DNA of 40,904 bases, from NCBI GenBank assembly GCA_040754315.1, contig JBFMCS010000006.1, positions 1 to 40,904 of the forward strand, read 5' to 3'. Shown here piece after piece: positions 38,325 through 40,445 of this stretch. The stretch comes from Bacillota bacterium. Lineage in GTDB: Bacteria > Bacillota > Sulfobacillia > DUSP01 > JBFMCS01. The position numbers and the translations under genes are program-made. Numbering within the stretch: position 1 is the stretch's first letter; each line of letters opens with the position of its first letter. Under the pieces are notes generated by a model, which ran no database searches, was not told where the DNA came from, and saw only the letters and a program-made list of their open reading frames with translations.

Positions 38325-38835
38325 CCCCGCCCTTCAGGGCTGGGGATAGGCGGTCCTTGGTTTCAGACTGCTGTCATTATATGGTATGATTGGGCGTAAG
38401 GCGCGAATCCAGGTCCAACAACAACATAGTCTACTGCTGCAAGTACCACGTGGTATGGTGCCCGAAGTACCGCCCTCCCGTCCTGAAGGACGGGGTGGAC
38501 TCCCGGCTCAAGGAAATCCTCGGCGATGTGGCGCGGGAGAGAGGATCATCGAGCTGGAGGTCATGCCGGACCACGTCCACCTGCTGGTGGAGGTGGATCC
38601 CCGGTTCGGCATCCACCGGCTGGTGAAGCTCATGAAGGGCCGCTCCTCCCGCATCCTGAGCCAGGAGTTCTCCTGGCTCAGGTCGAGGCTTTTAACCCTC
38701 TGGACCAACAGATACTTCGTGGCCACCGTGGGAATGGCTCCCCTTGCGACCCTGCGTGAGTACATCGAGAGACAGAAGTACGTCTGAGACGCCCAGTTTC
38801 GTGTGTGAGGTTCCCCTCCGGGGCTCCCCACCTCA
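38325..38835 (+). mobile_element. IS200-type element (TnpA only)
   Basis: The left-end hairpin CCCC-GCCCT/AGGGC-GGGG (38325-38345) precedes the transposase. At the right end, TGAGGT (38806-38811) pairs with ACCTCA (38830-38835) around a CCCC/GGGG-rich inner stem. Subterminal hairpins and a lone Y1 transposase without inverted terminal repeats are the mark of IS200. The exact cut sites were not determined and may lie a few tens of bases outside. Confidence 0.75.
38390..38787 (+). pseudogene. tnpA: IS200 Y1 transposase TnpA, frameshifted
   Basis: HUH-family single-strand transposase. Frame 1 from TTG 38390 gives RRESRSNNNIVY and YHVVWCPKYRPPVLKDGV. The frame is lost at 38543-38545 and continues one base out as IIELEVMPDHVHLLVEVD, with the HUH motif HVHLL, then TLWTNRYFVATVG and the catalytic-Tyr region YIERQK. 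A single-base loss after ARERG accounts for it. Intact homologues are about 130-150 residues. The element cannot move itself unless a helper is present or the reading is corrected. Confidence 0.85.
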
Positions 38836-39076: not shown

Positions 39077-39105
39077 TTGACGAAGAGCCTTGACCATTAT
39101 AGTAT
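39077..39105 (+). promoter_or_regulatory. Promoter of the HicA-HicB-SecB-like operon
   Basis: TTGACG (39077-39082), 17 bases, TAGTAT (39100-39105). Predicted RNA start near 39112, at the edge of the palindrome. Confidence 0.65.
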
Positions 39106-39112
39106 TGTATGC

Positions 39113-39128
39113 GCACCACATGTGGTGC
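39113..39128. promoter_or_regulatory. Perfect palindromic operator
   Basis: GCACCACATGTGGTGC is a perfect 16-bp palindrome starting 8 bases after the -10. This placement suits repression by the ribbon-helix-helix domain of the HicB-like protein, as in other toxin-antitoxin operons. Confidence 0.65.
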
Positions 39129-39177
39129 TCGGAGGAATACGTATAGCCCACCAGCGAATAATAAGGGTGGTGAATCC

Positions 39178-39450
39178 GTGGCTACCGCGACTAAGACCTT
39201 ACTGCGATTTCTTGACGCTCCACAGAATTCAAAGTGGAGCAAGTTGGTTCCTGCGCTTAGGGCTTTCGGATTCGAGGTTGAGCAGTGCTCTGATGATCCA
39301 AATAACTGGATGGTGCTTCACCCGGCAGATGAGCGCATTATCACGGTCTCGGTAAAAGATAATTTACTGAAGAAACCCGTTTACCGCACAAAGCTTACGA
39401 AATACGTTCGAAGTGTGCTGGATGAGTTGAATGAGGAAGAGGAGGATTGA
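39178..39450 (+). CDS. hicA: HicA-like toxin candidate
   Basis: 90 residues from GTG 39178, with AAGGGTGGTGA ending 4 bases upstream. The predicted order helix (SKLVPALRAFGFEVEQ), strands (NWMVLHP, RIITVSVKD), helix (LTKYVRSVLDEL) follows the HicA double-stranded-RNA-binding fold. HicA toxins are ribosome-independent mRNA interferases. The canonical GSHxxY motif with the catalytic His is absent; SDDPNNW stands in its place and the only His is in VLHP. The protein is also longer than usual HicA (about 60 residues), with an N-terminal extension and an acidic tail. The family call rests on fold pattern and the adjacent HicB. Base composition is lower in G+C than the rest of the window. Confidence 0.6.
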   Translation: MATATKTLLRFLDAPQNSKWSKLVPALRAFGFEVEQCSDDPNNWMVLHPADERIITVSVKDNLLKKPVYRTKLTKYVRSVLDELNEEEED

Positions 39451-39451
39451 C

Positions 39452-40048
39452 ATGGTTAGCCGAGACTTGGAGTTCTACATGAGCCAAAACTATCCTATAA
39501 CCTTAAGGGCATTGACCCAAGAAGAAGGAGGCGGATGGTTTGCGGAGATAAAGGAACTTCCAGGCTGCATGGCTGATGGAGAGACAGAACAGGAAGCCTT
39601 GGCCAATATTCAGGCATCCAAGAAACTATGGCTCAGCGCAGCGTTGAAGCGCGGAAGAAGGGTCCCCATGCCCCAGGTCGATGATCAGGAGGAGTACTCT
39701 GGTAGGTTGACTGTTCGGATGCCCAAGAGCCTGCATCGCAAGATTGCAGCGTTGGCGAGGAAAGAGGGAAGCAGTCTCAATCAGTTCATACTTGCGGCAT
39801 TAGCTTTTGATACGGGCGTTTTTGAATCAGCAAAGAAGGCCCCTCAAGAGGTACACATAATTGTTGAGGAGCGGCCAATCGACTTGCGTACAGCCTATCT
39901 GAGTCATCTTTCAATGGGTTCATGGAATAGGTGTATGCCTTATGACAGAGGGGTGATACCAAGTGGAGAAGAAGCTGGAACTCATGTTCGACAAGGTCCG
40001 GCTGGAGTCTTTGGTCTTAAAGACGGTTACTGCCAAACCAGGAGCTGA
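39452..40048 (+). CDS. hicB: HicB-family antitoxin with C-terminal extension
   Basis: 198 residues. The HicB RNase-H-like domain is at about 14-75 (GGGWFAEIKELPGCMADGET, EALANI). A ribbon-helix-helix domain is at about 84-120 (YSGRLTVRMPKSLHRKIAA, SSLNQFILAALAF), which should bind DNA and repress the operon. A further 80 residues follow; about 130-170 contain hydrophobic and aromatic residues (VHIIVEE, LRTAYLSHLSMGSW, CMPYDRG). ATG at 39452 follows GGAGG (39441-39445) by 6 bases and lies one base after the hicA stop. The 3' end overlaps the SecB-like gene by 86 bases. In TAC systems an antitoxin extension of this kind is the chaperone addiction region, a natural reading here. Confidence 0.85.
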   Translation: MVSRDLEFYMSQNYPITLRALTQEEGGGWFAEIKELPGCMADGETEQEALANIQASKKLWLSAALKRGRRVPMPQVDDQEEYSGRLTVRMPKSLHRKIAALARKEGSSLNQFILAALAFDTGVFESAKKAPQEVHIIVEERPIDLRTAYLSHLSMGSWNRCMPYDRGVIPSGEEAGTHVRQGPAGVFGLKDGYCQTRS

Positions 40049-40397
40049 GTCATTTGCTTTTCAAGAAGAATCCAGGTTAGAGGTTAAAAGAGAGAAAGGA
40101 GACGAAGTAATACTTCGTCTGATTGAACAGTATTGTTTCGAGCCCCTGGGTCACCTAGAAATGGAGATAGTCGTGGTTGGACAGGTCAAAGTGGACCCGG
40201 AGTTTACTGAGGGCGAAATAGCCGCGGCTGTTGAAGCCGGCGGATATCCTTTGTACAGTACACGCAGTCTACTCGTTGGATACCTTACTAACATGGCTTT
40301 GGGTTTCCCAATAGTACTGCCCCCATTCCCAACTGAGGACGGACTAGCGGAACCAGAGGATCAATCAGAAAAGATTCAGTTCGATGTGGATGTTTAG
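39963..40397 (+). CDS. SecB-like chaperone candidate (TAC-type)
   Basis: 144 residues from GTG 39963, 9 bases after GAGGGG (39948-39953). Strand-rich N-terminal half (ESFAFQEESRLEVKRE, EMEIVVVGQVKVDPEF). The C-terminal helix pattern PLYSTRSLLVGYLTNMALG and the tail FPIVLPPFP match the layout of SecB and SecB-like proteins, where a helix rich in small and hydrophobic residues is followed by a P-rich segment. SecB is not a normal part of Firmicute secretion, so a solitary copy within a hicAB operon points to a toxin-antitoxin-chaperone role. The call is from pattern reading, not a search. Confidence 0.6.
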   Translation: MEKKLELMFDKVRLESLVLKTVTAKPGAESFAFQEESRLEVKREKGDEVILRLIEQYCFEPLGHLEMEIVVVGQVKVDPEFTEGEIAAAVEAGGYPLYSTRSLLVGYLTNMALGFPIVLPPFPTEDGLAEPEDQSEKIQFDVDV

Positions 40398-40415
40398 CTC
40401 GGAAGAAATGCATCA

Positions 40416-40445
40416 ATGGCCCTTGGGTTTCCCTTGGGCCATTTT
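40416..40445 (+). terminator. Terminator of the TAC-like operon
   Basis: ATGGCCC (40416-40422) pairs with GGGCCAT (40436-40442), with an inner GGG/CCC pair, followed by TTTT (40442-40445). It lies 18 bases after the SecB-like stop. Confidence 0.85.

Follow-up and report, generated by a model that had tools for sequence, protein, structure and literature searches.

A probable HicAB-type toxin–antitoxin–chaperone operon of Bacillota with a putatively chaperone-dependent HicB tail and a HicA that lacks two active-site residues

A hicA-like gene, a hicB gene and a gene for a SecB-like protein lie side by side near the 3′ end of a contig from a Bacillota bacterium. Do the three form a toxin–antitoxin–chaperone (TAC) system, and can its toxin still act? 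The window, that is, the whole stretch of DNA that was analysed (40,904 nucleotides), is this complete contig (labelled G000:C6). We consider it probable (about 0.82) that the locus is a HicAB-type TAC operon in which the C-terminal tail of HicB depends on the chaperone and HicA has lost Gly and His of its active site. The central idea of a HicAB-type TAC is not new. The first-pass annotation took such systems to have been merely mentioned, whereas experiments in E. coli have already shown that Mmet-TAC, the HicAB-SecB system of Methylomonas methanica MC09, depends on its chaperone (Bordes et al. 2016, PMC5105189).

Inspection of open reading frames confirmed three adjacent, co-directional genes within 39178-40397 of the plus strand, as described in the first pass, in the toxin–antitoxin–SecB-like chaperone order of TAC systems. 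None of the three frames is broken, and their ribosome-binding sites look plausible. The hicA-like gene and hicB are separated by 1 nt, and hicB and the secB-like gene overlap by 86 nt, which implies coupled synthesis of their products. A frameshift hidden in the overlap was considered and rejected, as the overlaps of relatives span about 4-110 nt. The genes had been placed behind one promoter and before one terminator. A promoter-like sequence is indeed present, but such sites are no commoner in the region than chance predicts (2 observed vs. 1.7 expected in the scan); the hairpin 3′ of the operon is stable (z -2.4), but its T-run is weak and the terminator scan gave no call. The palindrome beside the -10 box is a plausible candidate for the HicB operator. 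Its sequence occurs in perfect form nowhere else in the genome, and the 40.9-kb window has three perfect 16-mer palindromes in all. A conserved operator upstream of the relatives' hicA genes was sought and none was found; the palindromes differ among relatives and prove nothing. Upstream of the operon, an IS200-type transposase gene (38386-38787) is frameshifted, with profile positions 2-40 in one frame and positions 42-121 in another. Downstream, near the contig end, 40525-40713 matches group II intron D1-D4 (RF02001, 33.8 bits).

Table 1. Features of the hicA-like–hicB–secB-like locus, in window coordinates.
Feature	Position	Strand	Basis
Candidate sigma-70 promoter, TTGACG-17-TAGTAT	39077-39105	+	scan
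Perfect 16-bp palindrome GCACCACATGTGGTGC, candidate HicB operator beside -10 box	39113-39128	.	palindrome search
hicA-like gene, 90 aa, GTG start	39178-39450	+	ORF, orthologues, fold model, alignment
hicB, 198 aa, ATG start	39452-40048	+	ORF, Pfam
ChAD-like stretch of HicB, residues 157-167 (SWNRCMPYDRG), directly before the secB overlap	39920-39952	+	comparison with Mtb ChAD
secB-like chaperone gene, 144 aa, GTG start, first 86 nt within the hicB end	39963-40397	+	ORF, fold model
Hairpin 3′ of the operon, candidate terminator with weak T-run	40415-40443	+	folding, z -2.4

The 144-residue product of the third gene had no significant match in Pfam, NCBIfam or PADLOC, and none of 19 relatives matched Pfam SecB (PF02556) or NCBIfam SecB. 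PDB sequence profiles did not reach SecB, and in hhalign a 19-member profile aligned with E. coli SecB no better than with an unrelated control protein. A fold model was built from four sequences, namely the window protein and three relatives (two from Candidatus Fermentithermobacillaceae genomes and one from a Bacillota MAG). It consists of four strands followed by two helices, at moderate confidence (pLDDT 72.8). In a Foldseek search of the PDB, this model matched 22 chains at E <= 0.001; apart from two functionally uncharacterised streptococcal proteins (2o2a, 2hng), these were SecB and SecB-TA. Chains of 5mtw, the M. tuberculosis (Mtb) SecB-TA with its chaperone-addiction (ChAD) peptide (E 3e-6, prob 1.00), ranked first, ahead of the H. 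influenzae and E. coli SecB structures (top matches: 5mtw, 1fx3, 1ozb, 1qyn). There are also matches to phage proteins that carry a SecB annotation. The predicted model places the third protein within, not outside, the SecB fold and so bears out its first-pass description as SecB-like, a link to which the sequence methods were blind. The protein lies outside the canonical SecB profile family PF02556 despite the shared predicted fold, and the assignment rests on fold, not on sequence. Canonical SecB (PF02556) was absent from the source genome in a search that, as a control, does find E. coli SecB. New here, as judged from the profile searches, is a chaperone clade that no Pfam or NCBIfam model recognises (0/19).

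The search for relatives covered 154 genomes of the class and 398 sampled Bacillota genomes, with neighbourhoods examined by ORF checks. Seven of the 154 class genomes encode a SecB-like protein, always behind hicA and hicB. The Bacillota sample yielded it in 20 of 398; in 14 of these it sits in a hicAB operon, in one it follows an MqsA-like gene (by eye) and in five it lies elsewhere. After merging of one near-identical pair, the hicA-hicB-secB order was found at 19 distinct Bacillota loci. A Bacillota host is not unusual, because the chaperone clade occurs in about 4-5% of the sampled Bacillota genomes. The remark in the first-pass annotation that a GC-rich Firmicute is an unusual host is thus not upheld (operon in 7/154 class and 14/398 Bacillota genomes), and SecB-like genes in Firmicutes are already in the literature (PMC4257090). 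Relatives were found neither in scans of viral contigs nor in a single-protein scan of genome contigs; plasmids and phages gave no tblastn match, and two genomes of the same order had no homologue. The operons at loci L010 and L012 adjoin what look by eye like tyrosine integrase genes, with a repressor-like gene as well at L012, which suggests carriage on integrated elements. At L028 (1480-2682), a SecB-like gene follows a gene for an MqsA-like antitoxin, which by eye combines a zinc-finger with an HTH and bears a long extension containing Trp; this may be another TAC type in Bacillota. At L027 (1471-2604) and L029 (1471-2907), SecB-like genes adjoin a class I glutamine amidotransferase-like gene, with no toxin–antitoxin pair by eye.

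By its sequence the second gene is certainly hicB, with Pfam matches to HicB RHH (PF05534, 3e-13), UPF0150 (PF21748, 2e-6) and HicB_lk_antitox (PF15919, 3e-6). As first described, the protein combines a UPF0150/RNase-H-like N-terminus, the degenerate domain of HicB antitoxins, with a DNA-binding ribbon-helix-helix (RHH) domain at about residues 76-121 and a C-terminal extension of ~77 residues. Across the 19 loci, the HicB tails extend 46-88 residues past the RHH (median ~57), and 18 of the 19 contain Trp, where about 10 would be expected (p about 1e-4; the statistic assumes independence and a Trp rate of 1.25%, and at 2% p weakens to about 0.01). The one Trp-free tail is that of L031. Five related HicBs from genomes in which no SecB-like protein was found stop after the DNA-binding domain or bear shorter tails (4-43 residues), none with Trp. 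The extension is absent from two-component homologues, and among the HicBs examined the long Trp-bearing tail occurs only alongside the chaperone. The chaperone contacts of the Mtb ChAD EVPTWHRLSSYRG are W108, R110 and Y114 (PMC6377645). The window SWNRCMPYDRG matches Mtb WHRLSSYRG over a short motif, with W, R(+2) and Y(+6) at the same spacing. The residues around and after the tail W differ among relatives, in line with reports that ChADs are variable and specific (PMC5105189). At L021 (960-1715), the HicB tail repeats KSNQWRH, which recalls the Mtb-HigA1 ChAD, where two similar stretches have been reported.

Could a plain hicAB pair simply have come to lie next to an unrelated chaperone-like gene? 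The lack of any sequence-library match for the third gene would fit, but the same gene order and tight spacing are conserved in 19 distinct Bacillota loci, which excludes a chance grouping, and the restriction of the long Trp-bearing tail to HicBs with a chaperone also argues against it; we give this reading practically no weight. The SecB-like protein might instead be chiefly an export chaperone whose co-transcription is incidental, as TAC SecB proteins can substitute for E. coli SecB (PMC5105189). However, the genome has no other SecB and 147 of the 154 class genomes have no SecB-like protein, so that export seemingly does not need it, and the HicB tail co-occurs with the SecB-like protein; this makes an export role very improbable. 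The TAC reading proposed in the first pass was right, given the gene order, the SecB fold model and the Trp-bearing tails.

The product of the first gene had no significant match in Pfam, NCBIfam or PADLOC, PF07927 included. Three of five orthologues in the same type of operon match PF07927 (best 7e-9). The predicted model has a helix-strands-helix layout with 6g26, 4c26 and 4p78 among the top Foldseek matches; HicA structures rank first, yet below significance (best E 0.07). The HicA-like identity of this 90-residue protein is supported by its orthologues and weakly by its fold, and sequence and model together indicate a diverged HicA homologue with a dsRBD-like fold. We aligned 19 HicAs (18 from hicAB-secB operons and one from a two-gene pair; L017 was excluded, as its HicA frame looks truncated). 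In gonococcal HicA, Gly22, His24 and His29 are each needed for toxicity (PMC12297915), and these correspond to positions 41, 43 and 48 of the window protein. In the alignment the window protein has Asn43 at the catalytic His position and Pro41 at the active-site Gly position and keeps His48, along with other residues common to the relatives, including W20, L27, G31, P49, T56 and Y69. The catalytic His, required for HicA RNase activity according to a review (PMC7180214), is kept in the other 18 HicAs, and the window protein alone is without it, a loss that the first-pass annotation overlooked. We therefore class the protein as homologous to HicA rather than as an active HicA toxin. A sequencing error behind the missing His was rejected, as the Gly and His positions both differ and several base changes are involved. 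The loss makes toxicity of the window copy doubtful; judging from the alignment, the toxin is probably disarmed, with its toxic output reduced or absent, though its frame is intact. When the whole genome is searched with Pfam HicA, the window gene is missed and two others come up, in ordinary HicA-HicB pairs on contigs C53 (L071, about 1500-2085) and C23 (L072, about 1500-2085), whose HicBs (134 and 141 aa) are without a long tail. At L017 (1936-2661), the HicA remainder and HicB form one open frame with no stop between, either a fusion or a broken hicA.

What, then, does the altered HicA say about the state of the operon? It may be a decaying remnant that arrived by a mobile element and lost its toxin to drift or selection, with hicB and secB persisting for lack of time. 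The frameshifted transposase and the group II intron match that flank the operon at the contig end, the patchy distribution with two homologue-free genomes of the same order, and the integrase neighbours of two relatives' operons all favour this account; three intact frames, credible ribosome-binding sites and a complete ChAD-like segment speak against it, since a drifting locus would be expected to gain stops. We hold it to be a serious contender, at somewhat below even odds. A fully active TAC, in which the window HicA tolerates Asn43 and cuts RNA or blocks translation via other residues (e.g. His48 and a basic residue), appears rather unlikely. The three intact frames and the retention of His48, the equivalent of gonococcal His29, with the other common residues would suit it, but the catalytic His is reported to be required (PMC7180214, PMC12297915) and is kept in every other aligned HicA, and the position of gonococcal Gly22 is replaced too. 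More speculatively, and with distinctly lower probability, the RNase-dead toxin may be retained, the HicA-HicB-SecB complex serving without RNA cutting as a chaperone-gated transcription switch or a sensor of phage or unfolded proteins; a dead toxin would remove the toxin–antitoxin function.

For the HicAB-type TAC operon that we favour, we infer chaperone binding, HicB protection, operon repression and the trigger from the example of Mtb-TAC, Mmet-TAC and CmdTAC (PMC6377645, PMC5105189, PMC11618068). The additional C-terminal tail of HicB would depend on the adjacent SecB-like chaperone, which would bind its tryptophan-centred segment at about residues 157-167. Binding would prevent aggregation and let HicB fold and escape proteolysis. 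Chaperone-bound HicB would then bind HicA, keeping it neutralised, and would repress the operon through its RHH, probably at the palindrome. Titration of the chaperone by unfolded host or phage proteins would lead to loss of HicB and release of HicA; with the active site gone, this release may have no toxic result in this genome.

The nearest known system, compared by description, is Mmet-TAC (hicA Metme_2813, hicB and SecB-TA), which has the same families, namely HicA, HicB with a C-terminal extension and a SecB-like chaperone; unlike the window locus, it is proteobacterial, its toxin is active and its chaperone dependence is shown by experiment. M. tuberculosis HigB1-HigA1-SecB-TA (Rv1955-Rv1957) shares the toxin–antitoxin–chaperone order and the W..R...Y ChAD pattern, and its 5mtw is the solved structure closest to the predicted model of the window chaperone, at 15-17% identity in the structural alignment; its toxin and antitoxin are of the HigB/HigA, not the HicA/HicB, families. 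CmdTAC of E. coli, with its tested model of triggering by a phage capsid protein (PMC11618068), likewise has a labile antitoxin guarded by a SecB-like chaperone, but its toxin is an ADP-ribosyltransferase and its antitoxin is different. Ordinary two-gene HicAB systems have the same HicA and HicB domains but neither the long Trp-bearing tail nor a chaperone gene.

These results extend chaperone-addicted HicAB to a Bacillota branch with SecB-like proteins that escape every Pfam and NCBIfam model. The roughly 19 natural HicB tail–chaperone pairs, together with tail-less HicBs as controls, provide material for reading the rules of chaperone recognition, and the window copy is a toxin variant with a naturally altered active site.
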